From NCBI GenBank assembly GCA_003142935.1, contig PLOG01000095.1:62348-106880 (forward strand): a stretch of 44,533 nt of DNA. Direction: 5' to 3'. A program made the translations under genes and the position numbers. Origin of the DNA: Acidobacteriaceae bacterium (GTDB taxonomy: Bacteria; Acidobacteriota; Terriglobia; Terriglobales; Acidobacteriaceae). The notes beneath the pieces are model-generated. The model did not search any database and had not been told where the DNA came from. It saw only the letters and a program-made list of their open reading frames with translations. Shown piece by piece: positions 27,734-44,533 of the stretch (its first letter is position 1; each line of letters begins with the position of its first letter).

Positions 27734-29931
27734 AACTGTTTAAGCATTCATGGAACGCCGCCATCGCGGCCTTGATCGGGGCAGTTAGCGCTGCTGCTCT
27801 CCTTTTTTCTTTCATTCACTACATACGTCCTTTCCTCGGACTTCCCTTCCGCGACCCGTTCGCTGACGGCAAGTCGAACTTGTGGCAACCAATGGGAGGT
27901 GCCTGGGATCTTGCTAATGGAACAATGCAGAATCACTCCGACGAGTGGGGTGCGAAGCTACTGGCAGGATCGAAGTACTGGACGGATTACGTTGTCGAAG
28001 CGGACTTGGAGATCTTGAGAGATTATGGCGATGCTGGCCTGATCGTGCGTTCTAATCAGGAAGACAGGGGCGTCGATGCATATAACGGATACTACGTCGG
28101 CTTGCGCAGTATAGATGACTCCTTGGTGATCGGCCGGGCAGACTACGGTTGGATGGAAGGTCGACCGGTGCCCATGCCCGGCGGAGTCCGCAGGCTGACC
28201 TGGTACCACCTCAAAGTCGTCGTCCAGGGCTGTGAAATAGGTGTCGCTGCCAACGAAGTTGGAACGCAAAACAGGGCATGGACCGTGTTTCAGGAGTCAG
28301 GTTGCGTGGCCTCTGGCAGAATCGGGCTGCGCTCAGTGGCGACTGTCGCATCATGGCGGAATGTGAAGGTGTACTCGGTCGGTGTGCCCGCAGAGCTTGC
28401 CGCCATCCGCCGGCATGTGACCGAGGAGACCCATCCCGAATTTCCAAAAGGCGAGGCAGCCTATAACTCCTCTCATACCTTCCCAACCTATGATCCAAAG
28501 GACGCGAAGTTTACTCCGGAGAAGACCGCGGCAAAAGCCCACCCCCCGCAGCCAATTAGCAGCCTGAACAACCTTCCGGAGCCTGTATCGCACCCGGTCT
28601 CGGTGCGCGGAGTGGTAACGCTCACTTCACCGCAACTCTACGTCCAGGACGTCACTGGCGGAGTGGCTGTTGCTGAAGTGAATGTTTCTGCTCTTGGAAT
28701 TGGAGACGAAGTTGAGATTACCGGATGGCCCGACGCACAGCCATTTTCAACGATCCTGCGCAAAGCCGACGTCCGTCTGCTTTTGGGCCGGACGCCGCCC
28801 CCGCCGGTTTCGATTACCGCCGCCCAGGCTGCAACCGGTGTTTTCGAGGCCGACTTTGTGGAAACCCAGGGGTATTTGCAACATATACATTACGAATCGG
28901 GGAACACAATCATTCTGGACCTCGACGATGGTTCTCAATCCTTTAGAGCTATCGTGACGGGAGGACCCTCAGCGGCGTTGTATCGCAAATTTAGCGAGCA
29001 GAGCCTGTTGCGCGTCCGGGGTATTTGCGTTTTAGATCCGCGATTCACTCAAAACGAAGTTCCCTTTGCACTGCTTCTTCGCGCCGCGGACGATATAGAT
29101 GTGCTGGTTGGTCCGCCATGGTGGAGTGCCCGGCGCTTCATCGAGTTGACCTGCGTATTACTGCTACTCCTCCTGATGATTCTCTTTCTATATGTCCGAA
29201 TCGAAAACTGGAGAATGAAGGGGATTCTCGATGAGCGAGAACGACTGGCGCTCGAGATGCATGACACGTTGGCACAGAGTTTCGCTGGAGTCGGCTATCA
29301 GCTACAGGGGATTCGCAACGGCATGCGCAACGGTCCGGCAAATTGGCCAACCATCAACGAGCAGCTTGACCGCGCATGCGAGATGGTGCGGCAAACGCAC
29401 GAGGAATCCAGCCTGAGCATTGCGATGCTGAAACCGGGATCACCCGAGTTTGGAGACTTGACTATTGCCTTTGAGCGGTGCGCCTCACGGATTGCCGAGG
29501 GTGGGGACGTGAGAGTAACGGTGACACGCGAAGGTCCTATTCGGGCGCTCCCGTTACGAGTGACAGATACTCTCTTTCACATCGGCGCTGAGGCTATAAC
29601 CAACGCCATTCGTCATGCTCAAACGGAAACGGTTGAGGTTCACATGACGTATGAGACGAATGCCATCGTGCTACACGTGCAGGATCACGGCATCGGTTTC
29701 ACCGCGGGGGGACAGCTTCGAAGTCACGGTCTTCGCGACATGGAACATCGAGCCGCAAGTATTTCAGCAGATTTGCATGTCCATACTGCGCCAGGAGAAG
29801 GCACCTGTATCGAAGTCGTGGTTCCCTTGCACTCCAGAAAAGTATTAACTGAATTGGTGAGCCATGGCGAACGGTACATCACGCGCTTAGCCTTCAAGGC
29901 AGGACAGAAACTGGGGTTTCATCGTCGCTAA
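27730..29931 (+). CDS. Hybrid-ectodomain sensor histidine kinase (HisKA_3 type)
   Basis: This membrane sensor kinase has 733 residues. TM1 is at about 8-30. A concanavalin/LamG- or DUF1080-like beta domain spans about 36-225 (GDAGLIVRSNQEDRG, NGYYVGLRS). A proline-rich linker is followed by two OB-like beta repeats (about 285-455). TM2 is at about 468-488. The dimerisation/phosphoacceptor region carries His511 in LEMHDTLAQSF. The ATPase domain has the N-box IGAEAITNAIRHA near 620 and DHGIGF near 655. The large exported part resembles carbohydrate-binding folds, so direct or binding-protein-mediated sugar sensing is inferred. The GTG start overlaps the upstream lipoprotein gene. A NarL-type regulator lies convergent 32 bases away. 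Confidence 0.88.
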   Translation: MKLFKHSWNAAIAALIGAVSAAALLFSFIHYIRPFLGLPFRDPFADGKSNLWQPMGGAWDLANGTMQNHSDEWGAKLLAGSKYWTDYVVEADLEILRDYGDAGLIVRSNQEDRGVDAYNGYYVGLRSIDDSLVIGRADYGWMEGRPVPMPGGVRRLTWYHLKVVVQGCEIGVAANEVGTQNRAWTVFQESGCVASGRIGLRSVATVASWRNVKVYSVGVPAELAAIRRHVTEETHPEFPKGEAAYNSSHTFPTYDPKDAKFTPEKTAAKAHPPQPISSLNNLPEPVSHPVSVRGVVTLTSPQLYVQDVTGGVAVAEVNVSALGIGDEVEITGWPDAQPFSTILRKADVRLLLGRTPPPPVSITAAQAATGVFEADFVETQGYLQHIHYESGNTIILDLDDGSQSFRAIVTGGPSAALYRKFSEQSLLRVRGICVLDPRFTQNEVPFALLLRAADDIDVLVGPPWWSARRFIELTCVLLLLLLMILFLYVRIENWRMKGILDERERLALEMHDTLAQSFAGVGYQLQGIRNGMRNGPANWPTINEQLDRACEMVRQTHEESSLSIAMLKPGSPEFGDLTIAFERCASRIAEGGDVRVTVTREGPIRALPLRVTDTLFHIGAEAITNAIRHAQTETVEVHMTYETNAIVLHVQDHGIGFTAGGQLRSHGLRDMEHRAASISADLHVHTAPGEGTCIEVVVPLHSRKVLTELVSHGERYITRLAFKAGQKLGFHRR

Positions 29932-30693: not shown

Positions 30694-31363
30694 TGTCCTA
30701 TTGAGGATACTTCAAGCGCACACTAAAGTTGTCGCATTAGTCTATGGGCCAATCATAATGGCTCTGAATAGAGATTGCAAAGTCAATTGGGAACGATAGC
30801 TGAACGTGTTCGCACATCGCAAGACGTGTAACCATCGCGTCAACTCGGCAACCAAAAGCATCGGAAGCATTTACCTGGGGAAGTTAATCTTGGGCACAGC
30901 ACAACCCTGGCAACAGCATCCATACAGGGATCTTCAGCCGCTTCTTTGCTTGATCGATGGCAGTGACCGCTCCGTCTCCACGGCTCCGTCCTGCAGAGAT
31001 TCCGAAGAGTAATACCATAATGCGGTTGGAGCGGGTAAAAGACCGGGACATCGGTGTTCTCCACGCTCAGGGTATTGTGGGCGTGGATGTCATCACCCGC
31101 ACCTGCATCGCGTGGTCCTCAGCCGCGGGCTCACCCCCAACCGCACCCGCTGGATCCCTTGCTGGCCTGGCTTCTTCTCGCCTGTCGGTGTGTTGTCACG
31201 AGTTATTCCGCTGCCCGTTTCGAGCGATCTCGAACAATTGTTTGCTGGACATCGAAGCCGGTTAAGAAAGCTTCCCGCTTCTTAATCTTCGCTTCAGTTC
31301 AGCCCATAATCATGCGGTGACTTGCGTTTTGCGATTGCAAGTTCAGTTCGCAGCAAAGTAATC

Positions 31364-31389
31364 CTATACACGTATGTAGATATGATATG
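31364..31389 (+). promoter_or_regulatory. Promoter/operator of ROK kinase gene
   Basis: CTATACACGTATGTAG (31364-31379) is a near-palindrome centred on ACGT whose only mismatches are transitions. TATGAT (31381-31386) follows as a good -10 box. The 10-mer ATACACGTAT and the 8-mer ATGATATG recur, in the opposite orientation, upstream of the MFS gene at 33889-33906. Confidence 0.6.
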
Positions 31390-31411
31390 GGTTGTGTGCT
31401 ATTGTTTAGCC

Positions 31412-32332
31412 ATGAAAAATACTCTCGCAATCGATATCGGTGGGACAAACTTCAGTATCGCCATCTTCGAGGGGGCATCGTTATTCGGAAAGCTCACGCA
31501 CTCGACTGATCGTAAGGCAGGTCCGACTGGAATATTGAATCAGATCGAGAAAATGCTCAGGGTCTTATGGCGCGATGGGGCCATTCACGGATGCGGAATT
31601 GGATTTGGCGGTCCCGTTGACTTTGCCGCCCAGAAGGTTGTCGCGTCTACACATGTGGACGGTTGGGAAGGTTTTGACTTGGTCAGAGAGGTTGAAACCA
31701 GGTTCTGCACGCCGGTCGTCATAGATCGCGACAGTATGGTGGGTGTTCTCGGGGAAGGGTATTTCGGGGCGGGTCGAGGCATCCGGCCACTTTTTTATAT
31801 CACGCTTTCAACGGGAATCGGTGGTGGGCTGCTTACCGCGAGCGGTCTGTATCGCGGAGCTGACTCATTTGCCTGTGAACTGGGCCACCATACGGTCGTC
31901 CCGGATGGACCAGCCTGCCTCTGCGGCTCCAATGGATGTCTGGAACGAATGTGTTCCGGACTGTGGCTTGAACGCGATTACGGACGTCCCGCACAGGAAC
32001 TGTTCATGGAGCCGGAGTTTGTTTCTCGTTATGTGATTCATCTTGCCCAAGGGATCAAGAGCTGCCTGATGTTCCTCAATCCCGCCCGCATAGTAATAGG
32101 GGGAGGAATCAGTCAGGCGGCGGATCTGCTCTTCATTCCGTTGCGAAAGGAACTGGATCGCCAGATGACGTCTTGGTGGAGAGCGAGCGTTGAGGTGGTT
32201 CCTGCTGCTCTCGTCGGAGAGAGCGTTCTTCGGGGGGCGTTGGCCTTAGCTACCGAACATATCTACCACCAGAACCCAGCGAGCCTGGATTGCGTTAGCG
32301 ATGCAGTTGCTCCTCCATTGCTTCAAGGCTAA
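31412..32332 (+). CDS. ROK-family sugar kinase (glucokinase/fructokinase type)
   Basis: This cytoplasmic kinase has 306 residues from ATG 31412. It opens MKNTLAIDIGGTNFS with the ATP-binding DIGGTN motif. The catalytic Asp lies in DRDSMVGVLGEGYFG, and ISTGIGGG-like LSTGIGGGL follows. The ROK zinc motif CLCGSNGCLE with upstream CELGHH is intact, so a metal-bound active fold is expected. There is no DNA-binding domain. A long upstream frame is rejected because promoter elements fall inside it. The gene overlaps the convergent MFS gene by 38 bases and shares promoter words with it, so it may phosphorylate the sugar which that porter imports. Glucose or fructose cannot be told apart here. Confidence 0.87.
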   Translation: MKNTLAIDIGGTNFSIAIFEGASLFGKLTHSTDRKAGPTGILNQIEKMLRVLWRDGAIHGCGIGFGGPVDFAAQKVVASTHVDGWEGFDLVREVETRFCTPVVIDRDSMVGVLGEGYFGAGRGIRPLFYITLSTGIGGGLLTASGLYRGADSFACELGHHTVVPDGPACLCGSNGCLERMCSGLWLERDYGRPAQELFMEPEFVSRYVIHLAQGIKSCLMFLNPARIVIGGGISQAADLLFIPLRKELDRQMTSWWRASVEVVPAALVGESVLRGALALATEHIYHQNPASLDCVSDAVAPPLLQG

Positions 32333-33635
32333 CCCCACGTGTCTCCGGATAGAAAAGGATTACCACGATGAATTGGAGCGCCGTAAATCCCGAAAAGAAA
32401 TAGAACGGTCCTGAATGCCACCTGGCGGCGGCAATTGGAAAGACGATCGATACCAGAGCATTCATAAACCAATGAGTGAAGCTACCGATGCTCTGCCCCT
32501 TGGCCCGCACCCGGTTCGGGAAAATTTCACTTATATAGACCCAGATTACAGCCCCTTGCGAAAAAGTGAAGAAACCGATAAAGCCCATCAGAAGCCAGAC
32601 CAGGGCTCCTTGATATTGTTCCAGCCGAAATATAGTACCGACCCCAAAAAGACACAGAGTTGTCCCTACTGATCCGATAAGCAGAAGCATCCTGCGGCCA
32701 ATCCGATCGATAACCAACATTGCCAAAGTGACGCCGATGAGGTTGGTAATGCCGATGAGCACAGCTTGAAAGTCACTCGACCCCTTGTCAAAGCCAGCTT
32801 TTTCAAAGATGTCGTTCAGGTAGTACATGATGGCGTTGATGCCCGAGAGTTGGTTGAACATTCCAATGGAAATGGCCAGAAAAATGGGAAAGCGATAGCG
32901 CCATTGGAAGACGTTTGTACCCTTCGATCCAATTGCATCTTCCAAAGACTTTGTGATTTCACGTAGTTCAAGTTCCGGGTCAGGATCGCCATTTCGCTGG
33001 AGTACCTCCAAGGCCTCCCGCGTCTTGCCTTTACCTGCGAGCCATCGTGGGCTTTCGGGAATGAAAAACAATGCCAGGTAGAAAACCAAAGCCGGGACGG
33101 CCGCAATGCTGAATTTCCAGCGCCAATCTGTGGCCCCAAGGTGCAACAGGCCCAGGCAGAAGTTAGAGAAGTACGCCAACAACATTCCAAAAACGACATT
33201 GAATTGAAACGCCATGACAAGGCGGCCACGAAGTTTTGGGGGAGCGATCTCTGCGATATAGGTTGGACTTATCACCGAGGAGCCCCCTACTGCCAGGCCT
33301 GCGAGTACGCGAAAGCACAGGAGGGGGTACCAGCCCCATGCCAATGCACACCCCAGGGCCGTGAGCACGTAGAGCAAGCCGAGGGCGCGTAGACAGGCGC
33401 GACGACCGGCAATATCTCCCATCTTGCCTGCAAAGGCAGCGCCCAATACGGTGCCCCAAAGGGCACTTGAGACCGTAAAGCCAAGAGCGAGGGGAGATAA
33501 ATGAAAGACACTCGTCAGGGAGCCCGTGGTTCCCGCGATGACCGCAGTATCGAAACCAAAAAGGAGGCCCCCGAGAGAAGCGATCACACAAGTCGCTAAC
33601 AAGCGTTTATTGAGGGTTTTGCGTACTTCAGACAT
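32295..33635 (-). CDS. MFS sugar:proton symporter (sugar porter family)
   Basis: This 446-residue inner-membrane porter has 12 predicted helices. Sugar-porter signatures are visible: LLFGFDTAVIAG in helix 1, GRRACLR in the first loop, PESPRWL before the central loop, FNQLSGINAIMYY in helix 7, DRIGRR in the second-half loop and PETRG near the C-terminus. QLSGINAI is typical of hexose and xylose symporters. ATG 33635 has GGAG six bases upstream. The 3' end overlaps the convergent ROK kinase gene by 38 bases. The likely promoter lies about 250 bases upstream (33889-33906), implying a long leader. Confidence 0.92.
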   Translation of the reverse strand: MSEVRKTLNKRLLATCVIASLGGLLFGFDTAVIAGTTGSLTSVFHLSPLALGFTVSSALWGTVLGAAFAGKMGDIAGRRACLRALGLLYVLTALGCALAWGWYPLLCFRVLAGLAVGGSSVISPTYIAEIAPPKLRGRLVMAFQFNVVFGMLLAYFSNFCLGLLHLGATDWRWKFSIAAVPALVFYLALFFIPESPRWLAGKGKTREALEVLQRNGDPDPELELREITKSLEDAIGSKGTNVFQWRYRFPIFLAISIGMFNQLSGINAIMYYLNDIFEKAGFDKGSSDFQAVLIGITNLIGVTLAMLVIDRIGRRMLLLIGSVGTTLCLFGVGTIFRLEQYQGALVWLLMGFIGFFTFSQGAVIWVYISEIFPNRVRAKGQSIGSFTHWFMNALVSIVFPIAAARWHSGPFYFFSGFTALQFIVVILFYPETRGVSLEAMEEQLHR

Positions 33636-33938
33636 CTGCAACTCCAAGGCCACATTCCAGTGGCGCTGTATGCAGGGCAGTCAATGACTTGACATGCCCC
33701 CGGAATTCGTAGCAGCTAACAGGCCTGTGCCGTAGCGCATATTGCTTGAAATCAACCGCATACCGTTCCGCATTGCCCTCTGTCATTTCTTCATCCGTTT
33801 CGCTCCGGAAGCAGCCTGATAAGGGATACCCCTCGATAGACTTGCCCAGATGGGTACTCTACCCCTCTCATTTCCACTGCGAGTTCAACATATCATATAC
33901 GTGTATGTCTTTTTACCGTTGACAGTTTCAAATCTAAC
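33636..33938. other. Leader of MFS gene and divergent promoter region
   Basis: The stretch has no ORF with a ribosome site. Its right end carries two facing promoter/operator elements (33889-33906 minus, 33919-33951 plus). The part from 33636 to about 33885 would be a 5' leader of the MFS mRNA; no riboswitch class was recognised in it. Confidence 0.5.
33889..33906 (-). promoter_or_regulatory. Promoter/operator of MFS gene, shared words with ROK kinase promoter
   Basis: Read on the minus strand this is ATACACGTAT directly followed by ATGATATG. The TATGAT inside it can serve as a -10 box. Both words occur in the same order, six bases apart, before the ROK kinase at 31366-31389. Confidence 0.55.
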
Positions 33939-34527: not shown

Positions 34528-37500
34528 ATGACTCGATGGCAAACAAACAGTTTTCGGACTTATTACACTCTCGGCCTGGAGGAAATATCTTCGATCTTAG
34601 ATAAGCTTTCCGGCGCTTCGGTGGCCGTAATAGGGGATTTTTGTCTAGATATTTACTGGGCAATCGATCGGTCGGCGTCGGAACTCTCAGTTGAGACAGG
34701 GCTCAAGACCGAACCAGTCAGTAAGCAGCGCTACTCGCCAGGCGGTGCAGGAAACGTTGTTATGAATTTATTATCCCTTGGAGTTGAGTCGGTCTATCCT
34801 GTGGGCGTTCTGGGAAACGATCCTTTTGGACGTGAGCTGCGGCTGCTACTGGACAATTCTCATGTGGATTGCAGTGGCTTGATTTCGCAAGATGAGGGGT
34901 GGTCGACACAGACTTATATTAAGCCATGCGTGGAAGGTCAGGAGTTGAGCCGTATCGACTTCGGTAATTTCAATCACTTATCGAACGTAGTTGAGTCGGA
35001 GTTATTTTCAAAACTTGAAGACATCCTGCACAAAGTCTCGGTCGTGTTGGTAAATCATCAAGTTACTGGGAGCATTCATGACTCCACAACCTTTCGACAA
35101 CGGCTGGCGGAGGCGATAGAGCGGTTTCCCCAACTGACTTTCATCATCGATTCGCGCGGATACCATGACTCTTATCCAAAGGCGATTCACAAGCTCAACG
35201 ACCATGAACTCATGAGGGCGAGTGGAAAGCCCACCGATGCAGACGAGGTTATTTCTCTTGATTGCCTTGTTCAGCAGACCCAGCGGCTTTACGAGCGCTG
35301 GAAGTCGCCGCTCATTGTTACTCGCGGGGAGCGGGGGTGCATCATCGCCTCAGGCAGTGAATTATCTCAGGTGAGTGGCCTGCAATTATCCGGCCCGACA
35401 GATTCAGTCGGAGCAGGCGACACATTTTGCTCTGCCCTTATGGCTTGTATCTCGATTGGCGCGGATTTAGCTTCTGCGGCCTTTATTGCCAACATAGCAG
35501 CTGCAGTTACAGTTCAGAAGCTCTTTCAGACAGGAACTGCCACTCGTCAGGAAATTCTGGAATTGGGAACAGTTGCAGATTTCCTTAAACATCCGGAACT
35601 TGCCGAGAGTCCCAATCGCGCGAGATATCTTGACGGATCTGAAATTGAGATCATCAATGAGTCCTTGCCGGCTCTTAATATCCGGCACGCCATTTTCGAC
35701 CATGATGGCACTATCTCCACTCTCCGCGAAGGGTGGGAGAAGATCATGGAGCCGATGATGATCAAGTCCATTTTGGGAACTCAACACCAGGTGGCTGATG
35801 AAGCGCTTTTCATGTGCATACGAGACCGTGTGCGGGGATTTATTGAGCGCACCACTGGCATTCAGACAATTGTGCAAATGCAGGGACTGGTGAAGTTGAT
35901 CCGAGAGTTTGGACTTATACCCGAAGAACAGATTCTCTCAGCTGCGAAATATAAGGAAATCTTCAATGAGCAACTCATGGAAGTTGTCGATCGGCGAATG
36001 GCCAGGCTGGATTGCGGAGAATTATGCATTAGCGATTTCACGCTTAGGGGCGTGGTGCCATTTCTTCGAGCGCTGAAGCAGGCAGGTGTGCTTCTCTATC
36101 TCGCGAGTGGAACGGATGTGGAGGATGTGAGAAGGGAGGCTGAACGATTGGGCTATTCAGATGTCTTCGAGGGTAGAATTTACGGTTCAATTGGCCAGGT
36201 TGCGAAAGATGCAAAGAAAGTCGTCATCGAAGGAATCCTCAGCGAAATTGATGGAGCCGCCGACCAAATTGTCACATTTGGTGATGGGCCCGTTGAGATA
36301 CGCGAAAGCGGCCGACGTGGTGCTTTCGCTATCGGCGTCGCCAGCGATGAACTACGCCGATTTGGGATGAATCCTGAGAAACGGACTCGCCTCATTCGTG
36401 CAGGAGCCGATGCTGTTGTTCCTGACTTCTCGCAATGGCAAAAGCTCTGGGAGTTTCTTCACCTTCCCCATCCCCGCTCACAAAACACGTCGCATCCCCA
36501 ATTTGACCGTTCCCGTGTACAGACTCACAGGCTCAGTGCTCGCATGAACAAGGTCAACATTGAACGGGACGCCGTTTCTCCGGATGCGGAACCAGGGCCG
36601 ATTCCCCCTGCTTCTACAAAAGCATTGATGGAGTGCGCGGAGAAAATCCGCGCTGCTCGAAGTGCAGGGCGGCCTGTCATTTTGGCTTTTGGCGCGCACA
36701 CCATAAAGAATGGCCTGGCGCCGGTTCTTATCCAACTTATGGAGGAGGGATTGGTCACCCTCCTTGCCACCAACGGAGCAGGTATCATTCACGACTGGGA
36801 ATTTGCTTTCCAAGGATTAAGTAGTGAGGATGTCCGGGCTAATGTGGATCTCGGTCAGTTTGGTATCTGGGAAGAGACAGGATTCAATCTGAACCTGGCG
36901 CTGATCGTAGGTGCCTACGAAGGGCTTGGTTACGGTGAAGCCATTGGCAAGATGATTGTGCGTGAAGGATTGGACATTCCCACTTCAGAGCAGTTATTAA
37001 GAACCGTTAGGAGCGATGCAGCACAGGATCCCAATGTTGCCGCGGCAGCTCTGGATCTTTTGGCTACGATTCAAATGTGTAACCTTGAACCTGGGTTTCG
37101 CTCTATCCCCCATCCCTTTAAGCAATACAGCGTACAAGCCGCAGCTTATCGATTGAACGTTCCCTTCACGGCGCATCCCATGTTCGGGCATGACGTCATA
37201 TACACTCACTCCGTAAACCACGGGGCAGCGATTGGGCGCGTCGCCCTGAGGGATTTTCTCACCTACGCGGAGCAGGTACATCAACTCGAGGGTGGCGTGT
37301 ATCTTTCGGTGGGTTCGGCTGTGATGTCGCCGATGGTTTTCGAGAAATCGTTCTCCATGTCTCAGAATCTTGAGTTACAGGAAGGGCGCAAGATCACGAA
37401 CCACCACATGGTTATTGTTGATTTGGCCGAGAGCTCCTGGGACTGGCAAAGAGACGGTGAGCCGCCCGCAGATAATCCTGCATACTATTTGCGCTATTGC

Positions 37501-37593
37501 AAGACATTCAGCCGAATGGGTGGGACGATGCGCTATGTCTGCGCCGATAACCGGGATTTCCTGCTCGCTCTACTGAAAGCTTTACGAGGGTAG
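34528..37593 (+). CDS. Three-domain fusion: PfkB sugar kinase, HAD phosphatase, unknown C-terminal domain
   Basis: This is a 1,021-residue cytoplasmic protein. Domain 1 (about 28-350) is a PfkB kinase resembling the heptose-kinase half of HldE: VAVIGDFCLDIYW, GGAGNVVMNLLSLG, and the catalytic DSVGAGDTF near 293-301. Domain 2 (about 388-670) is a capped HAD hydrolase with FDHDGT near 391, LASGTD near 528 and FGDGP near 585, all catalytic residues kept. Domain 3 (about 695-1021) is glycine- and histidine-rich (LAFGAHTIKNGLAPVLIQLM, ATNGAGIIHDWEFAFQG, HPMFGHDVIY). I do not recognise it firmly, though a deoxyhypusine-synthase-like fold is possible. AAGGAA precedes the ATG. The next gene starts three bases after the stop. 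A sugar-phosphate pathway is inferred; the substrate is unknown. Confidence 0.85.
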   Translation: MTRWQTNSFRTYYTLGLEEISSILDKLSGASVAVIGDFCLDIYWAIDRSASELSVETGLKTEPVSKQRYSPGGAGNVVMNLLSLGVESVYPVGVLGNDPFGRELRLLLDNSHVDCSGLISQDEGWSTQTYIKPCVEGQELSRIDFGNFNHLSNVVESELFSKLEDILHKVSVVLVNHQVTGSIHDSTTFRQRLAEAIERFPQLTFIIDSRGYHDSYPKAIHKLNDHELMRASGKPTDADEVISLDCLVQQTQRLYERWKSPLIVTRGERGCIIASGSELSQVSGLQLSGPTDSVGAGDTFCSALMACISIGADLASAAFIANIAAAVTVQKLFQTGTATRQEILELGTVADFLKHPELAESPNRARYLDGSEIEIINESLPALNIRHAIFDHDGTISTLREGWEKIMEPMMIKSILGTQHQVADEALFMCIRDRVRGFIERTTGIQTIVQMQGLVKLIREFGLIPEEQILSAAKYKEIFNEQLMEVVDRRMARLDCGELCISDFTLRGVVPFLRALKQAGVLLYLASGTDVEDVRREAERLGYSDVFEGRIYGSIGQVAKDAKKVVIEGILSEIDGAADQIVTFGDGPVEIRESGRRGAFAIGVASDELRRFGMNPEKRTRLIRAGADAVVPDFSQWQKLWEFLHLPHPRSQNTSHPQFDRSRVQTHRLSARMNKVNIERDAVSPDAEPGPIPPASTKALMECAEKIRAARSAGRPVILAFGAHTIKNGLAPVLIQLMEEGLVTLLATNGAGIIHDWEFAFQGLSSEDVRANVDLGQFGIWEETGFNLNLALIVGAYEGLGYGEAIGKMIVREGLDIPTSEQLLRTVRSDAAQDPNVAAAALDLLATIQMCNLEPGFRSIPHPFKQYSVQAAAYRLNVPFTAHPMFGHDVIYTHSVNHGAAIGRVALRDFLTYAEQVHQLEGGVYLSVGSAVMSPMVFEKSFSMSQNLELQEGRKITNHHMVIVDLAESSWDWQRDGEPPADNPAYYLRYCKTFSRMGGTMRYVCADNRDFLLALLKALRG

Positions 37594-37595
37594 TC

Positions 37596-38243
37596 ATGTC
37601 ACATCACATGAGAAATCTAGTCGAACGCTATTCTCCGCTAAGAGAATGCCAGTCTGATATTCAAGAAGCATTTGATCTGCTGGCTGCAACATTCAGAAAG
37701 GATGGAAAGCTTCTACTCTGCGGAAATGGTGGCAGCGCCGCAGATTCGGAGCATTGGGCCGGAGAACTGCTCAAGGGCTTTGCACTCCCCAGATCGCTCG
37801 CCGCTTCGATGCGCGAGGGATTGCCGCCGGAATTAGCTTCCCACTTGCAATGGGCATTTCCGGTCATTCCACTCACTGGCTTTCCCGCGTTTGCAACGGC
37901 ATTCGGAAATGACGTCGATCCCGAATACGTGTTCGCCCAACTCGTATTCGCATTAGGAAGAACTGGCGATGTGCTGGCAGCGTTGAGCACTTCCGGCAAC
38001 GCCTCCAATGTGTGCCGCGCTGCTGAGGTCGCTCGTGCGAAAGGTCTTCCAGTTCTGGCATTGACCGGAACAACGGGCGGAAAGCTCAAAGAACTCGCGG
38101 ATGTCTGTATTTGTGTGCCAGCCGCACAGACTCCACTCGTTCAGGAATTTCATCTTCCTATCTATCACTGTCTCTCGCTGATGCTGGAAGAACATTTCGC
38201 AAAGCTTTGGGAACAAAGACAGGATTGGAGCTATTTGTTATGA
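37596..38243 (+). CDS. SIS-domain phosphosugar isomerase, GmhA-like
   Basis: The protein has 215 residues and one sugar-isomerase (SIS) domain. GNGGSAADSEHWAGELLKGF near residues 43-62 and QEFHLPIYHCL near 185 match the phosphate loop, Glu and His of sedoheptulose-7-phosphate isomerase GmhA, so ketose/aldose phosphate isomerisation is plausible. SGNASNVCRAAEVAR holds the second SIS motif. GAGGG within the upstream coding end serves as ribosome site. It lies three bases after the fusion gene and overlaps the next gene by four bases. Without an HldE nucleotidyltransferase or a standard GmhB here, a heptose product is only one option. Confidence 0.87.
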   Translation: MSHHMRNLVERYSPLRECQSDIQEAFDLLAATFRKDGKLLLCGNGGSAADSEHWAGELLKGFALPRSLAASMREGLPPELASHLQWAFPVIPLTGFPAFATAFGNDVDPEYVFAQLVFALGRTGDVLAALSTSGNASNVCRAAEVARAKGLPVLALTGTTGGKLKELADVCICVPAAQTPLVQEFHLPIYHCLSLMLEEHFAKLWEQRQDWSYLL

Positions 38244-39295
38244 CGAATTCAAACTTGCAAAGCCCACTATTCTTTGAGCGTAACCGAGTCTTTCGGGTTT
38301 ACGAAGGAGGTAAGCTTTTTCATGATTTCTTTGGAGACGAAGCCGTCGACGGCAATTTACCTGAGGAGTGGATTGCATCGAAGGTGAAAGCCTTGAACAG
38401 GGAGATGCGAGCCCCCGATGAAGGGCTCTCAAAAGTCCGAGGCGAAAGAACAACCTTTGCCTCCCTGCTTGCTAACTATCCGGAGGAAATGACAGGTGGA
38501 AATGGATTCGACATGCTGGTAAAGATTCTCGACAGCGCCGTCCGATTGCCGGCCCAAACTCATCCTGATCCGGATTTCTCCAGGAAACATTTTGCTAGTG
38601 ACCATGGTAAGACCGAATCTTGGGTCATTCTTGCGACGAGACCTGGTGCAAAGCTCTTCTTCGGCTTTAAGGAGGGCGTGACTGAGACCGATCTGCAGCT
38701 AGCCGTGAAAAAGAGCGAGCAGCCGGGCGATGCCTTTTCCGGTCTGTTGCAAGAGGTCGAGGCCAAGGCAGGTGATGTTTGGCTGATTCCTGCTCGCATT
38801 GCACACGCCATCGGCGCCGGATGTCTGATTCTGGAAGTTCAGGAGCCAACCGATTTCACGATTCAACCTGAGCGCTGGTGTGATCGCTATCGTCTCTCCG
38901 ATCAAGAGATGTATCTTGGCCTCGACAAGGATGTTGCGCTCAGTTGTTTTGATTTGCAGCAATCCGGCCCTTCGGTTCTCACGCGAGGAAGCAAGAAAGC
39001 GAGAATCGACGAGGAAAACAATGACTATAGAAAGGAGGGTCTTATCTCGTTCAAAGATACGCCGTGCTTCGCTGTAAATCGGTACACCGTGAAGACGTCT
39101 TGCGCCTTGAGGAATCTAGCTGTCTATGTCGTGACAAGCGGAGAGGGAAAGTTGATGAGCTCGGCAGGAATAAGTAGTGTGAAGAAAGGAGCGTATTTCT
39201 TCGTCCCCTTTGCTGCCCACGGGGTTACGATTCACACCACAGTGGGGATGGAACTGATCGAGTGCATCCCTCCTGCTCAACCCGCGAAAATGTAA
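38240..39295 (+). CDS. ManA-like class I phosphomannose isomerase family protein
   Basis: This 351-residue cupin-fold protein is of the mannose-6-phosphate isomerase type. Zinc-ligand motifs are present: AQTHPDPDF near residue 105-113, HGKTESWVI near 120, and IPARIAHAIGAGCLILEVQE near 180-200. A second cupin-like half follows. The ATG overlaps the stop of the SIS gene (ATGA, 38240-38243); an upstream frame from 38111 is rejected. It could interconvert mannose and fructose 6-phosphates, or an analogue made by the two upstream enzymes. It is the last gene of the operon; decayed sequence follows. Confidence 0.87.
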   Translation: MTNSNLQSPLFFERNRVFRVYEGGKLFHDFFGDEAVDGNLPEEWIASKVKALNREMRAPDEGLSKVRGERTTFASLLANYPEEMTGGNGFDMLVKILDSAVRLPAQTHPDPDFSRKHFASDHGKTESWVILATRPGAKLFFGFKEGVTETDLQLAVKKSEQPGDAFSGLLQEVEAKAGDVWLIPARIAHAIGAGCLILEVQEPTDFTIQPERWCDRYRLSDQEMYLGLDKDVALSCFDLQQSGPSVLTRGSKKARIDEENNDYRKEGLISFKDTPCFAVNRYTVKTSCALRNLAVYVVTSGEGKLMSSAGISSVKKGAYFFVPFAAHGVTIHTTVGMELIECIPPAQPAKM

Positions 39296-39387: not shown

Positions 39388-40038
39388 TCAACACCTACGG
39401 GCATCGCCGGGATACCCGAGATGCTCGGCAAGTGCAGCCATGGCGAGGTACTCGCGCATCGCGAAGACGGATGCATCTACGGCGAGGATGGCGCTGCGGT
39501 CGCCGGGGGCGTTGGAGAGGGCGGCGTTGTTGTCGGCACCGGATTGCATGGCGTTGTCCCAGAACCAGAGGCCCCAGCGGGGATCGAACTGGGTGCGTCT
39601 GCGATAGGTTAGGATGCGCTGCATTGCGGGCCAAACGGGACGGAGCCAGGAATAGTCGTGAAGCCGCTGTGAAGCCAAAAGTGCGCCCTAAGCAAGAAAG
39701 GGTTTCATGGCGAACTTGCCGAAGAGCGGGCGCGGCCCCTGAGGAGTGATGCAGCCCGCGACGTATCCATTTAAGTCGGCGGAAAAGGCGAAGCTGAGCA
39801 CCCAGTCGCGGAGGAACTTTGCGTCGGCAGGGTTCTGATTGGCCCAATGGGCGCCAATAAAGAAGCCATCCCAGTCCCACATGTGCCCGTAGTACCCGGC
39901 AGGAATCAGGTAGGGATAGCGGATATATCACTGAGCCGGGCAGATGGTCCGGGGAGCGAGGTGGGCGAAGTCGGAGGTGAGGCCAGTAAGGAGGGCGGCA
40001 TCTGGGGACGATGCGGTTTCGGAAACCGTTGCGTTCAT
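39388..40038 (-). pseudogene. Broken GH63/MGH-like (alpha/alpha)6 glycoside hydrolase
   Basis: One minus-strand frame from ATG 40038 reads as a glucosidase/trehalase-like protein: YPYLIPAGYYGHMWDWDGFF, IGAHWANQNPADAKFL, MQSGADNN and DRSAILAVDASVF. Two in-frame nonsense codons interrupt it, TGA at 39930-39928 (after CPAQ) and TAG at 39690-39688 (after KPFLA, where CAG would fit). The frame ends at a TGA at 39388, well short of a full enzyme, so the 3' part is missing. Further reading frames at 39296-39387 (EAMLGFGKVPEFLADY) may be another remnant. The gene is dead unless stops are read through. Confidence 0.8.
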
Positions 40039-40231
40039 GAGCGCAGGAGAGCAGTAAGAATCCGGGAGCCGCGGCGAAGCATGGCGGTGCATTGAGTCGG
40101 CACGATGGTCATGATAACGCGCACAAGCTTTGTGAGGCTGAGGTGTCCGGGAACTGGAAGGATTTACTCGACTGATCTTTGCCGTCGAATGCAGTTACAT
40201 TCAAGGCTGCATGAAACCGGCAAAGCCAGCG

Positions 40232-41176
40232 CTATTTTATCGTCAAGCCACCGCTTGCCATGCCAACTCCCGCGAAAGCACTAACCATCCAGTCGTTCAT
40301 CGGATGCTGCTCCCCGCAGTCCAGACATCTCGTCATGGCAAACTGGGCCGCACAGTGCGGACAAACCCCTCGGGTTTGGAATGTGTCAAATGGCTGCCCG
40401 CACTGTCCGCATTGCCAGTAGGCTCCCAACGGTGGCGCTGTCCGGCAACTCGGGCAGGCAAACCCGCCCCGGCGCGGCAGCCTTGCAATTCGTAACAGCT
40501 CCTGCGCATGACGTAGTCCACCCCAACAATTCATCAGCATAAAAACGGAAATCGCACCGAACCAGAAGGAACGTAACCACAAAGCGAGGCCGAAGAATCC
40601 GACTATGCCCAACAAGCCGAGAATCGTGGTCACCATCAGGCTGCGGCCACGTCCCAGCACAAACCACAGCAGGGATCGGAGAATTTGGCCGCCGTCCAGC
40701 GGATAGATCGGCATCAAGTTAAAGACCAGCAAGGACACGTCAATCCACATGACCGCCCGCAACAACTGGTAGGCATCGGGAATCGCATGCGCCCATCCTA
40801 ACGAGCGGCTTAGCATGAACGCTGCAACAAAAACCGGCAGGAGCACCACGTTAACCAGAGGTCCCGCGGCGATGCTCCAGAGTGTAGCGCCCGGCCGTTG
40901 CGGAGGGTTCACGTACGCTACCCCGCCAAGGGGCCACAGCACGATCTGATTCGCCGTTCCTCCCACCTGCCGGCAAGCCAGGGCGTGACCAAATTCATGC
41001 ATAAGCACAATTGAGAATAGTGCCAGGTACTCCAATGCGTTCCAGGCGACCGAGGAGTATCTGCCCTTTCGGCTCTCGATTTCATATGCTGCCACGAGAA
41101 ACCAGGACCAATGCAGGTACAGGTCAACTCCGGCGAGGCGAAACAGATGGATAGACCCTTGGCGAACACTCTGCAT
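40232..41176 (-). CDS. M50 site-2-type intramembrane protease with four-knuckle zinc tail
   Basis: This inner-membrane metalloprotease has 314 residues. HEFGH (near residue 60) and NLMPIYPLDGGQI (near 158) give the zinc ligands and active-site Asp of the S2P/SpoIVFB family. About five hydrophobic segments are visible. The C-terminal 75 residues carry four CxxC pairs (CPSC, CGQC, CPHC, CLDC), i.e. two zinc-ribbon units, an extension not part of the core family. ATG 41176 is preferred over the TTG at 41182. The gene stands alone between a relic and a divergent reductase gene, so the substrate is unknown. Confidence 0.88.
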   Translation of the reverse strand: MQSVRQGSIHLFRLAGVDLYLHWSWFLVAAYEIESRKGRYSSVAWNALEYLALFSIVLMHEFGHALACRQVGGTANQIVLWPLGGVAYVNPPQRPGATLWSIAAGPLVNVVLLPVFVAAFMLSRSLGWAHAIPDAYQLLRAVMWIDVSLLVFNLMPIYPLDGGQILRSLLWFVLGRGRSLMVTTILGLLGIVGFFGLALWLRSFWFGAISVFMLMNCWGGLRHAQELLRIARLPRRGGFACPSCRTAPPLGAYWQCGQCGQPFDTFQTRGVCPHCAAQFAMTRCLDCGEQHPMNDWMVSAFAGVGMASGGLTIK

Positions 41177-41338
41177 TTTCAAAGCTTACTCCACTCAGAT
41201 TGTTCCGGGTCGGCTACCGAGTGCAACCCTCAATGGAGGAGCCTCCCTTGCACGGACCAAGTAATCGCATGGCGCCAGCGCCTACAATGAAAGGCGCTTG
41301 ATCCTCTCGGAGAACTGAGCGGAGGAGTACCCATCGCC

Positions 41339-41869
41339 ATGAAAGACCTGCATCTTTCGAAGGTCTACCAACTGCTTGAACCGGGTCCGGTGGTTCTGCT
41401 TACAACCGCCCATAAGGGTCGCGCCAACGTGATGACGATGTCCTGGCACATGATGGTCGAGTTTGAGCCGCCTCTGGTTGCCTGTGTCGTTAGCGATGCT
41501 AATCACAGCTTTAAAGCTCTGCGGGCGACGAAGGAATGCGTGATAGCCATTCCGGCGGTGGAACTGGCAACCAAGGTTGTGAGTATAGGCAACTGCACTG
41601 GTCGGGAAGTGGACAAGTTCGAGAGATTTAGCCTGACACCGGCACCAGCCGAGCGTGTGGCGCCACCCCTGATTGCCGAATGTTTCGCCAACCTCGAATG
41701 CAAGGTGGTCGATACCCGTCTCGTCAGCAAGTTCAACCTCTTCGTCTTGGAAGTGGTCAAGGCTTGGACGGACCCGGCACAGAGGCATCCGAAGACTATC
41801 CACCATCGCGGGAATGGCAAGTTCGCGGTGGATGGGGAGTTTATCAAGCTGAAGTCGAAAATGCCGTAG
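41339..41869 (+). CDS. Flavin reductase-like (FMN-binding split-barrel) protein
   Basis: This cytoplasmic protein of 176 residues is of the flavin reductase/DIM6 family. The pattern PGPVVLLTTAHKGRANVMTM near the start, then PPLVACVVSDANHSF, fits the FMN-binding split barrel. It continues with LECKVVDTRLVSKFNLFVLEV, typical of the group. It probably binds FMN and acts as an NAD(P)H:flavin oxidoreductase; a partner monooxygenase is not in view. GGAGGAG lies 11 bases before the ATG, which is rather long spacing, and no better start is visible. Confidence 0.85.
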   Translation: MKDLHLSKVYQLLEPGPVVLLTTAHKGRANVMTMSWHMMVEFEPPLVACVVSDANHSFKALRATKECVIAIPAVELATKVVSIGNCTGREVDKFERFSLTPAPAERVAPPLIAECFANLECKVVDTRLVSKFNLFVLEVVKAWTDPAQRHPKTIHHRGNGKFAVDGEFIKLKSKMP

Positions 41870-41911
41870 GAGAACTCGTCAAAAAACCCATGAACGATCC
41901 AAAAACGAGGA

Positions 41912-42115
41912 TCACGCCCGCGGCTGCTTGGCCACCAAATGGCTCGGTCGCCCCAGGAACACCTCAGAAGGCAGGTACAGGCGCTGCTCTTTGCACAACG
42001 GGCAGGTTACAGCTATTGACTTGAACGGGAAGTCTTCTCTCTCGAGCAAGCCGCTCTCAGAGACGACAAAGCCTACACACCGGTCCTCGTAAACTACCGC
42101 TAGGTCTGCAATCAT
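41912..42115 (-). CDS. 67-residue hypothetical protein with CxxC motif
   Basis: A short minus-strand ORF begins MIADLAVVYEDRCVGFVVSE, has CPLC at about 39-42, and continues EQRLYLPSEVFLGRPSH. The composition is protein-like, with alternating hydrophobic and charged residues and a zinc-knuckle-like cysteine pair, unlike the arginine- and proline-rich shadow frames nearby. A longer in-frame extension to 42874 runs antisense through the serine hydrolase gene and is a shadow. No clear ribosome site precedes ATG 42115. I do not recognise the family; a metal-binding helper is conceivable. Confidence 0.5.
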   Translation of the reverse strand: MIADLAVVYEDRCVGFVVSESGLLEREDFPFKSIAVTCPLCKEQRLYLPSEVFLGRPSHLVAKQPRA

Positions 42116-42325
42116 CGCGACACTGACATCCGCGTCATTCTCGGGCGCTACGCACTGTGCGGCACCAATGGAGCATCGAAAAATTGAGCAGTAGCCAAGT
42201 ACCGGTTGCGCGAAGCCATCCGTAGCGGATCCAAACCCGCACAGAAATTGCTGGACACGCGCGAGCAACCGCCGCAAGCCTGAACCTGACTCTTCCGTTC
42301 GATCCTGTGTGGTATAAACATCCCC

Positions 42326-43753
42326 ATGATGCCAAACCATCGTTTGCCGGGCCTGCGTAGCGCCGCGCTCTCGGCTATCTTTCTCCTGCTCTCCCTCCAC
42401 CTTCCTGCCCAGGACAACCTGCCCCCCGCCGAGCAGGCCAAGATCGCCTCTGATGTGAATGGCATCCTCGAGAAGACCGCCGCACCCAGTGCTGTCGTCG
42501 CAGTGGTCAAGCATGGACACGTCGCCTATACCGCGGCCTTCGGCTTTGCCCAGCTTGAACCGCGCATCCCCGCTACTGTCGATATGCCATACGGCATCGG
42601 CTCCGTCTCGAAGCAGTTCACCGCAGTCGCCGCCATGGTCCTCGTTGAACAAGGCAAGCTGCGCCTCGACGATCCGGTCTCCACCTGGTTTCCTGAACTG
42701 GCCCATTCCCATGACGTTACCCTCCGCCAGTTGCTCAACCAGACCAGCGGCTATTCCGACTACTACACCGAGGACTACCTGACTCCCGAGCTCGCCACCG
42801 TCACCGAGCCTTACGCCCTGGTCAAGCGCTGGACTGACAAGCCGCTCGACTTCCCGCCCGGCACCCAGTGGCAATACAGCAATACCAACTACGTCCTTTC
42901 CTCACTCATCGTCGAGAAAGTTGCAGGCCAGCCCTTTTTTCAGTTCCTTTCGAAACACGTACTCGCCCCCGCCGGCCTCACAGGCGTCGTCAATCTCGAC
43001 GGACCCAACGTTCCCGATCTGCCCCGAAACTATATCCACTTCGCCCTGGGGCCACCTCGGGAAACACCGCGCGAGGCCAAGGGCACCCTCACCGGAGCCG
43101 GCCAGCTCTCCATGCCTGTCGGCCAGCTTGCTCTCTGGGACACCGTGGTTCTCCACCGCGACAAAGTCATCAAGCCATCCAGCTGGCAGATGCTGCAATC
43201 GGAGGCAAGCCTTCCCGACGGCACTGGCACCGGCTACGGCATGGGCTACTTCCTCGCCGCGCAGGATAGCCGCCGAATTGTCGGGCATAGTGGCGAACTC
43301 AACGGCTTCACCACTCTCAATGAGTTGTTCCCTGCCCAGGACGCGGCCATTATCGTCATCGTCAACAGCGATCGCGGCACCGGCGAAATCTTCAGTGCCA
43401 TTGAGCAGGTCGTATTCGCGCCCGCTCCGCCCACCCTGCCCGCCGCAAACCCCGAGGCCGAACACCTGGTCCGTAGCGCCCTTGAAGAACTGCGCAAAGG
43501 CGCCATTGACCGCAGCCAGATCAACGACAATCTCGCCTACTTCTTCACTCCGCGCGTTCTTGAGGACTTCAAAACCAGCCTCGAAACCATCGGCTCTATC
43601 ACCAAGATAGAGCTAATAGGCGGAAGCGACCGCGGCGGTATGAACGGCCTCTCATACCGCATCACCGGCTCGTCCGGAATCACCGCGAGGGTCTCCGTCT
43701 ACATCACCAAGGATGGCAAACTCGACCAGCTGCTAATCACGCGCATCCAGTAG
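42326..43753 (+). CDS. Secreted class C beta-lactamase-family serine hydrolase
   Basis: This exported serine hydrolase has 475 residues. The signal peptide spans about 1-28 (LSAIFLLLSLHLPAQ). The class C beta-lactamase/DD-peptidase fold is clear: SVSK near residue 93-96 gives the nucleophile Ser and Lys, YSN near 186 the tyrosine, and GHSGELNGF near 325 the third motif. A C-terminal extension of about 110 residues after the hydrolase domain looks like the small beta domain often attached to such proteins. Role could be peptide, ester or D-amino-acid hydrolysis; resistance cannot be inferred. ATG 42329 is an equal start. Confidence 0.88.
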   Translation: MMPNHRLPGLRSAALSAIFLLLSLHLPAQDNLPPAEQAKIASDVNGILEKTAAPSAVVAVVKHGHVAYTAAFGFAQLEPRIPATVDMPYGIGSVSKQFTAVAAMVLVEQGKLRLDDPVSTWFPELAHSHDVTLRQLLNQTSGYSDYYTEDYLTPELATVTEPYALVKRWTDKPLDFPPGTQWQYSNTNYVLSSLIVEKVAGQPFFQFLSKHVLAPAGLTGVVNLDGPNVPDLPRNYIHFALGPPRETPREAKGTLTGAGQLSMPVGQLALWDTVVLHRDKVIKPSSWQMLQSEASLPDGTGTGYGMGYFLAAQDSRRIVGHSGELNGFTTLNELFPAQDAAIIVIVNSDRGTGEIFSAIEQVVFAPAPPTLPAANPEAEHLVRSALEELRKGAIDRSQINDNLAYFFTPRVLEDFKTSLETIGSITKIELIGGSDRGGMNGLSYRITGSSGITARVSVYITKDGKLDQLLITRIQ

Positions 43754-44015
43754 CCCGAGGCCCCGCGTCTCGCTGCCGGGAATTTGGCCGGGTTGCCTGG
43801 GGCGATAAGCACCCTAACCACCGGCCCACCTGATAACGCTGCAGTATTCGTTCTGTTTGCACTTGACGGCATTACGCCACTAGCAAACACATCGGAACTG
43901 GTGTCTCAGGATGAGGGGCTGCGGGCGCGATTGCGGGACATTCTGGACGCGAATCCCCCGACGACCAAACCGCATTTATACTTGATCTGATAGGCGGCAG
44001 CCGAAAGGATCAAAG

Positions 44016-44477
44016 ATGAAGCCAGAAATTGCAAAGGCATTATCGGACCACTTGGATAGACACAATCAAGAGAAGCAGCAAGCTGTGGTGCGTGCGTCCG
44101 AACGAGAAAAGCAAATCGCACAGAACGTTGCCGATTTTGAAGCAGCAAAGAACGCGGTCATCGAGCCCGCACTTCAGGAAATAGTCGATTTATACCAAAT
44201 AAAGGGCATTGCAGTCCGTGTGACGGAACAGGATGAAATCGTTAATCGCAACGGGGGCATTCAGCCGGCAAGCATTGGTATAGATATGGCCGCCGTCTAC
44301 CCGCATAGCGACATGAAACCTCACTTCATGCTCTCGTTTGATAAAGGAAACAGAATGCTGTCGCTTCACACTTCCACAGCGTCACAGGCGGGTCCCGCCG
44401 GTAGCGTCACTCCGCCCACCTTCGTTAGCGATCACTGGTCAGATGTAGATTCGGTTAGTCAGCTATCGAATAGATGA
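44016..44477 (+). CDS. Hypothetical protein, 153 residues, helical N-terminal half
   Basis: I do not recognise this protein. AAAGGA lies at good spacing before the ATG. The first 60 residues are charged and probably coiled-coil (KALSDHLDRHNQEKQQAVVR). The middle part (IVDLYQIKGIAVRV, GIDMAAVYPHSDMKPHFMLS) looks like a small globular domain, and the tail is polar. No signal or membrane segment is visible. Its stop overlaps the start of a further ORF (ATGA, 44474-44477), so the two are probably co-translated. Confidence 0.65.
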   Translation: MKPEIAKALSDHLDRHNQEKQQAVVRASEREKQIAQNVADFEAAKNAVIEPALQEIVDLYQIKGIAVRVTEQDEIVNRNGGIQPASIGIDMAAVYPHSDMKPHFMLSFDKGNRMLSLHTSTASQAGPAGSVTPPTFVSDHWSDVDSVSQLSNR

Positions 44478-44533
44478 AGGGGCTTTTCCTTCTTGTTCTT
44501 TGGCTTCTTGGGAACTGCGGGAACTTCCAAAGC
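44474..44533 (+). CDS. Start of an exported protein, cut by window end
   Basis: An ATG overlapping the previous stop opens a frame of at least 20 codons: MKGLFLLVLWLLGNCGNF, a typical signal sequence with a possible lipobox-like LGNC. The rest lies outside the window. The frame and the ATGA overlap argue that it is real. Confidence 0.5.
   Translation, partial: MKGLFLLVLWLLGNCGNFQS

Follow-up and report, generated by a model that had tools for sequence, protein, structure and literature searches.

The window (the whole stretch of DNA analysed, 44,533 nt) contains three confirmed open reading frames on the + strand at 34528-39295. The first (34528..37593), recognized from its ORF and domain matches, encodes a 1021-aa fusion of a kinase domain (K), a phosphatase domain (P) and a GSU2086-family domain (G), and is the sole K, P and G fusion among the tagged loci. 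After a gap of 2 nt it is followed by S, a GmhA-type SIS isomerase (37596..38243, + strand, 215 aa), and then by M, a ManA-like cupin isomerase (38240..39295, + strand, 351 aa). The stop of S and the start of M overlap in ATGA; judged from the sequence, M most likely starts at this ATG (38240) rather than at the TTG at 38111. The tight coupling of three genes claimed in the initial annotation was therefore confirmed.

The GC3 values of the fusion, S and M are 0.53, 0.49 and 0.55, respectively, compared with 0.59-0.76 in ten other measured window genes. This agrees with the lower G+C and different origin suggested earlier, and horizontal acquisition of the window copy is probable. Neighbouring genes encode a ROK sugar kinase (31322..32332, + strand; PF00480, E-value 6.3e-49; GC3 0.55) and a sugar-porter MFS transporter (32295..33653, - strand; TIGR00879, 353.4 bits) with a low GC3 (0.59) and an uncertain link to the set. 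The ROK kinase is a possible partner because ROK genes are repeatedly found next to the set in other loci. A ROK cluster (d4) is present in 19 loci, a count that includes ROK-type regulators and loci chosen for K or P hits, and in which the window is represented by a second ROK gene at 14119.

Domains of the fusion protein and the two isomerases

Domain K (34600..35553, + strand; residues 25-342) is an HldE/HldA-like PfkB kinase. The chain matches PF00294 with an E-value of 3.5e-30, and K matches the HldE kinase model TIGR02198 with 137.1 bits (below the equivalog cut-off of 345) and the heptose 7-phosphate kinase 4e84 in the PDB with an E-value of 9.7e-13. A GAGD motif is found at 295. When a tree was drawn for 37 chosen sequences, K fell in a clade of 12 rows (100/100) separate from eight canonical HldE rows.

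Domain P (35680..36336, + strand; residues 385-603) was assigned from PF00702 (E-value 3e-11 in the chain), HAD_2 stretches and a structure model (pLDDT 92.3). Residues D21, D23, K193 and D216 are invariant in the P alignment (A6 numbering). GmhB is a small HAD protein that has no cap. The modelled P has a helical cap (C1), and neither a GmhB model nor an adenylyltransferase was found among the NCBIfam matches of the 1021-aa chain (E-value up to 0.01). The surroundings of the window's set and the fetched stretches of its own genome likewise yielded no adenylyltransferase. Both the missing nucleotidyltransferase and the HAD domain unlike GmhB had been pointed out in the initial annotation. The closest folds to the model include YniC, beta-phosphoglucomutase and the MtlD phosphatase domain (Z 17-19), so that beta-phosphoglucomutase and phosphatases alike are among its fold neighbours. 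On the basis of the model, P might also be a beta-phosphomutase supplied by the bisphosphate made by K.

S was identified by profiles, PDB matches and motifs. It matches the phosphoheptose isomerase model TIGR00441 (E-value 2e-39; 135.1 bits, below the equivalog cut-off of 209), and its best PDB matches are phosphoheptose isomerases (2xbl, E-value 2.5e-31). It carries the motifs GNGGSAADSEHWAGE and QEFHLPIYH, which we take to be candidate GmhA metal-site and catalytic residues. The earlier reading of K, P and S as an HldE-like kinase, a capped phosphatase and an SIS isomerase is thus supported by the PfkB, HAD and phosphoheptose isomerase matches.

M is weakly similar to ManA (class I model TIGR00218; 54.3 bits, below the equivalog cut-off of 116.2), as had been proposed, and contains QTHPD, TESW and AHAIG, presumably candidate metal-site motifs. 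M was rejected as a core member of the set: the ManA-like gene is present at the window, but the M profile tagged elsewhere only one Brockarchaeota locus, weakly (25 % identity over 220 columns). This profile is thin, and distant ManA relatives may therefore be missed.

Domain G (36499..37578, + strand; residues 658-1017) had been described as unassigned. It scores 329.5 bits against the NCBIfam model NF052581 (cut-off 250), named 'GSU2086 family protein', and is therefore not an unassigned domain, although the family name gives no function or reaction. The G model (pLDDT 95.7, pTM 0.93) adopts the fold shared by deoxyhypusine synthase and the C-terminal domain of AgrE/ArgZ, with Z-scores of 18.6 to 6lrf_A and 18.4 to 7cmc_A (247 residues, rmsd 3.5).

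Since G has this predicted fold and a weak similarity to the deoxyhypusine synthase profile PF01916 (15.4 bits, gathering score 27), it could have kept amine chemistry and attach an amino group to a sugar or polyamine, or remove one. We regard this as very improbable. The identity of G to its fold relatives is 10-22 % over the aligned part, the score lies below the profile cut-off, and the linked genes encode sugar-phosphate enzymes with no polyamine gene among the annotated neighbours. In addition, the apparent region of the catalytic lysine, located by eye, reads GSAVMSP in G, and the synthase motif was not recognized in it. PMC7226451 gives Lys329 as the catalytic lysine of deoxyhypusine synthase and describes an NAD-dependent oxidation in which NAD is regenerated in the last step.

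In the G tree (78 of 123 domains), the window domain falls in clade A, with a Verrucomicrobia homologue as its nearest neighbour (78 %, 100/100). A Bryobacterales sequence nests within the window's class in this tree, in line with Acidobacteriota as the window's phylum. Archaea and Bacillota, which as a rule have no LPS, are among the carriers of G. Few genomes (8/301) carry the family in the phylum to which an Anaerolineae locus belongs.

The name GSU2086 was found in one paper only among the literature searched, an electrode-growth transposon screen (PMC5585712), and neighbouring locus tags in three. In the screen, GSU2085-2087 are listed as hldE, GSU2086 and gmhA with similar electrode-growth values (-3.1, -3.2 and -3.7), and GSU2086 is called a hypothetical protein, so this relative did not provide an already characterized pathway. 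No reaction for GSU2086 was found in the titles and abstract openings searched (HldD alternatives, Geobacter with heptose), and no literature linking heptose with deoxyhypusine synthase was found. GSU2086 and the window domain both belong to NF052581 and the Geobacter neighbours have the same functions as those in the window, whereas the window G belongs to clade A and is fused to K and P.

Recurrence and gene neighbourhoods

The combination of K, P, G and S is met again in different bacterial phyla and in two archaeal groups, whereas M is not part of this recurrence. Elsewhere they are found as separate genes, K-P fusions and G-S fusions. Among the loci closest to the window (L073-L122, grouped by identity and not by tree), 11 of 49 have all four modules within 6 kb, as do 4 of 26 further loci (L123-L152); the remaining five of the 80 loci lacked a G tag and do not enter these counts. 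K-P fusions number 18 and G-S fusions three. Module counts for L183-L210 are biased, as these loci were chosen for having K, P or G hits. A putative K-G fusion in L108 was rejected: the first 416 residues of the 784-aa frame have no K match, and the frame is therefore probably spurious.

The window's own genome has a second, unfused set (P-G-K-S) on contig C210. In another genome of the genus (G345), a K-P fusion that is 48 % identical over residues 24-646, with its K in the window's K clade, is followed by an HldE adenylyltransferase (TIGR02199, 182.9 bits, over cut-off) and HldD (407.2 bits), and a genome profile search gave no G match. In genome G297, a lone K of the same clade and a truncated HldD-like ORF are about 0.9 kb apart. 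A Geobacter sp. locus (L254) has the order gmhA-G-hldE with two heptosyltransferase-like genes nearby.

The loci of the window's subfamily and those with the order P-G-K-ROK-S often contain GH38 and GH92 alpha-mannosidases, ROK kinases, sodium symporters, AGE epimerases or sugar ABC importers. Other neighbours are GH18, fucosidase, rhamnosidase and GH98-like genes, alanyl-tRNA synthetase and mismatch-repair genes. The first group of neighbours looks catabolic and raises an alternative for at least the window's subfamily and the P-G-K-ROK-S operons, namely the use of a glycan-derived sugar, which could be mannose, a rare hexose or a scavenged heptose. This sugar would be phosphorylated by ROK or K and epimerised by G, and S (or M) would pass a ketose phosphate on to central metabolism. 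The GH38/GH92, AGE, SSF and ROK neighbours fit such a route, as do the ABC importer genes of ribose/xylose type that precede P-G-K-S in L174 (none over the equivalog cut-off), a transketolase that follows P-G-K-S in a locus from Clostridia, the ROK, MFS and M genes adjoining the window's set, and the archaeal and Bacillota carriers. Nevertheless, we consider it rather unlikely. The neighbours are mixed and no common sugar emerged across the annotated loci: the commonest family occurs in 6 of 110 tallied neighbours (of 122 ORFs; 12, long ones and some short ones, were left out). The phosphatase has no obvious place in this scheme. In the window's genus the genes that come after K-P encode an adenylyltransferase and HldD, and in L192 the gene ahead of P resembles a lipid A acyltransferase.

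Distribution of G and HldD in two phyla

When 396 genomes of the window's phylum were searched, G was over cut-off in 129 and HldD in 91, with both in 3 (29.6 expected; P = 2.5e-14, ignoring kinship). At the genus level, 3 were shared compared with 10.4 expected (P = 6.5e-4). Avoidance was also observed in 297 genomes of Geobacter's phylum (G in 180, HldD in 64, both in 12 with 38.8 expected; P = 1.2e-14, ignoring kinship). Neither was found in 179 and 65 genomes of the two phyla, respectively. The window's genus itself is divided: the window's genome (G000) has G without HldD, G171 and G345 have HldD without G, and G007 and G388 have neither. HldD (TIGR02197) gave no match in the window's genome, which is 97 % complete, at E-values up to 1e-50. 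Among named G-carrying genomes (50 of 80 loci checked), HldD matched at 1e-50 in seven and was over cut-off in six; five of these six belong to the 24 genomes closest to the window, including that of its nearest relative L073.

In Geobacter's phylum, 16 of 20 sampled G loci have gmhA as the next gene upstream, in the same orientation, and two of the four loci without it are at contig ends (L257 and L258). The sample was every 6th of the first 120 rows, counted by eye; rows were ordered by score and the weaker third therefore lies outside it. By comparison, gmhA was within 8 kb of hldD in none of 20 hldD loci (every 3rd row of the HldD matches), five of which come from genomes with both genes. 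In the window's family (L240 and L241), the same S profile does find gmhA next to hldD. HldE parts were near only 2 of the 20 G loci, and in the window's phylum gmhA was within 6 kb in only 4 of the 15 G loci with full flanks among L054-L071.

An in-place exchange of hldD for G was looked for in family f22 and not seen, as the flanks of G and HldD had no detectable genes in common. Because of this, and because many genomes have neither gene, the avoidance could reflect lineages with another heptose instead of replacement. G would then act in heptose metabolism without being a C6 epimerase, and a different activated heptose (an epimer, or an oxidised or deoxy form) would make HldD unneeded. This would account for both the avoidance and the gmhA coupling, but it requires an unusual product in two phyla, and we hold it to be improbable, somewhat more so than the catabolic route. 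No LPS structure for a G-carrying organism was found in the literature on Geobacter and heptose.

A possible heptose-phosphate route

Our preferred reading, to which we give a probability of about 0.45, is a heptose-phosphate route that has G, as an epimerase recycling its NAD, in place of HldD. S would convert sedoheptulose 7-phosphate to manno-heptose 7-phosphate (as GmhA), K would make the 1,7-bisphosphate (as HldA) and P would remove the 7-phosphate (the role of GmhB). G, with tightly bound NAD, would act on a heptose phosphate adjacent to the S step, oxidising one of its carbons (most likely C6) and reducing it again. It would thus be an epimerase that does the work of HldD, to which it is unrelated, but before nucleotide activation. 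The substrates, carbon, order of steps and use of NAD are all inferred.

As in the ADP-heptose pathway, a GmhA-type isomerase, an HldE-like kinase and a phosphatase are encoded together, and a K-P relative in the window's genus precedes HldE-C and HldD genes. The differences are that the window's cluster has no adenylyltransferase, its HAD domain is C1-capped and not of the GmhB type, its genome has no HldD match, and a GSU2086-type domain is added and fused. The parallel with heptose activation and the logic of a kinase plus a phosphatase, both proposed in the initial annotation, are supported. Its new sugar-phosphate pathway gives way to a narrower reading, a heptose-type set with G as a possible substitute for HldD. 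For S, K and P alone, a heptose-type role is probable. The window copy may have been retuned, because its subfamily often sits among sugar-use genes.

For the family as a whole, we tentatively propose, at somewhat less than even odds, that GSU2086 proteins are a second, unrelated class of heptose epimerase with the fold of deoxyhypusine synthase. Such an NAD-recycling enzyme would set C6 at the heptose-phosphate stage beside GmhA, replacing HldD in many bacteria of the window's and Geobacter's phyla, and would also be present in archaea that lack LPS. Heptose phosphates are described as signals of bacterial presence to animal cells, which makes this branch point of wider interest. If the proposal is true, a widespread family with no stated function would gain one, and two phyla would no longer lack a step in the synthesis of surface sugars; one example is Geobacter, whose gene the transposon screen lists among those that affect electrode growth. 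It would also mean that the fold of an enzyme modifying a translation factor performs sugar epimerisation, and that heptose-type chemistry exists in archaea without LPS.

Gene cluster around a three-domain chain

Three tandem genes were found in the window. The first (34528-37593, forward strand) is an open reading frame for a 1021-aa chain that combines a PfkB kinase near the HldE/HldA kinase (K) with a HAD phosphatase (P) and, at its C terminus, a domain (G) scoring above the NCBIfam NF052581 cut-off ('GSU2086 family protein'). After a 2-nt gap follows the gene of an SIS protein of the GmhA kind (S; 37596-38243, forward), whose stop is overlapped as ATGA by the ATG of a ManA-like protein gene (M; 38240-39295, forward). 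None of the cluster proteins reached the equivalog cut-offs of HldE, GmhA or ManA, and K, S and M were therefore considered as relatives and not as certified members.

Family membership and gene context are most simply explained by a heptose-phosphate route, where S, K and P would do the jobs of GmhA, HldA and GmhB. G would stand in for the epimerase HldD, acting next to S at the sugar-phosphate stage. Genome G345, from the window's genus, has a K-P fusion (48 % identical) followed by HldE adenylyltransferase and HldD, both above cut-offs; G was looked for in this genome and not found. In the K tree, this kinase joins the window K, apart from canonical HldE. A Geobacter sp. locus has the order gmhA-G-hldE with two heptosyltransferase-like genes nearby, and a G. 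sulfurreducens transposon screen gives similar electrode-growth values for GSU2085 (hldE), GSU2086 and GSU2087 (gmhA) (PMC5585712). Locus L206:7656-10196, from another genome of the window's family, has a solitary K at a distance of about 0.9 kb from a truncated HldD-like ORF of 179 aa; a further, full HldD is present in that genome.

Next to the window set lie genes for an MFS sugar porter and a ROK kinase as well as M, and the set may have a catabolic or retuned role instead. Loci of the window subfamily and those ordered P-G-K-ROK-S also often have alpha-mannosidase, ROK kinase, symporter and ABC importer genes as neighbours. Elsewhere in the window, a periplasmic sugar-binding protein gene (26729-27733) directly precedes a sensor histidine kinase gene (27730-29931, forward) whose product has a domain resembling 3-keto-disaccharide hydrolases at its N terminus (PF06439, residues 46-214), an unusual-looking sugar-sensing pair. 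Past the cluster (39395-44533) are numerous overlapping mid-length ORFs on both strands, mostly of higher G+C and with uncertain gene calls.

Distribution of G and HldD

Among 396 genomes of the window's phylum, G was over the cut-off in 129 and HldD in 91, with both in 3 (29.6 expected), all of one genus. At the genus level, both labels occurred in 3 of 210 genera (10.4 expected; P = 6.5e-4), two of them without any single genome having both. For the 297 genomes of Geobacter's phylum, the counts were 180 (G), 64 (HldD over cut-off) and 12 (both; 38.8 expected). Genome-level P values for this avoidance were about 1e-14 with kinship ignored. HldD was found in 6 of 50 named G-positive genomes of other groups, a figure with no base rate for comparison.

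In a sample from Geobacter's phylum, 16 of the 20 G loci had gmhA as the gene directly upstream of G, none of the 20 hldD loci had it within 8 kb, and HldE parts were nearby in 2/20 of each. Several observations count against the replacement of HldD by G: in the window's phylum gmhA is a less frequent neighbour of G (found at 4 of the 15 loci with full flanks in L054-L071), no gene-order swap between G and HldD was seen within family f22, many genomes have neither (65/297 in Geobacter's phylum; 179/396, derived, in the window's), and the window-subfamily and P-G-K-ROK-S loci often have the sugar-use neighbours named above.

Recurrence and origin of the modules

Recurrence was assessed from 80 named loci retrieved with a G alignment, with five lacking a G tag dropped. 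In L073-L122 (n = 49), K was present within 6 kb in 24, P in 25 and all four modules in 11; the corresponding numbers for L123-L152 (n = 26) were 13, 6 and 4. Fusions among named G loci comprised K+P (18) and G+S (3), the latter single chains with the GmhA-type isomerase being two archaeal (Bathyarchaeota, Brockarchaeota) and one Anaerolineae locus (L128, L136 and L151). A Clostridia locus (L138:165-5990) has P-G-K-S and then a gene for transketolase, an enzyme that could provide sedoheptulose 7-phosphate. At locus L120:9986-11978, a K-P fusion and two genes of GH92 cluster d69 are followed by a tandem pair of G genes, the second of which is strongly diverged (branch length 1.5).

The window's own genome also has P-G-K-S as four separate adjoining genes on contig C210. 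In a tree of 78 of the 123 G domains, three groups were observed. The window G has a Verrucomicrobia sequence as its sister (78 % identity, 100/100), in a clade of 28 sequences mainly from Bacteroidota, Lentisphaerota and Planctomycetota; an adjoining branch of the same larger clade holds seven sequences from the window's class, and the C210 G groups with other sequences of that class (100/99). Because of this placement, the lower GC3 of the window cluster and the absence of G over the cut-off from every other sampled genome of the family, the window copy is likely to have arrived horizontally.

Predicted fold and significance of G

A model of G built with the window copy and 51 further sequences taken from named loci (52 in all) had a pLDDT of 95.7. 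Its top fold matches were deoxyhypusine synthases and the AgrE/ArgZ C-terminal domain (Foldseek best E-value 1.5e-7; Z up to 18.6); the G-family profile matched ArgZ (E-value 0.001) and AgrE (0.0013) marginally by sequence. According to PMC7226451, deoxyhypusine synthase oxidises its substrate with NAD, which is regenerated in the last step. Given the shared predicted fold, a redox-neutral, NAD-recycling reaction would be a natural guess for G.

The component families and the pathway logic are already known. Two things are new, so far as the literature was searched: the fusion of K, P and G, and the evidence that the place of a missing HldD is taken by a family with a deoxyhypusine-synthase fold that bears a name but no stated function. 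There is a fair chance that the GSU2086 family represents a new class of heptose epimerase.
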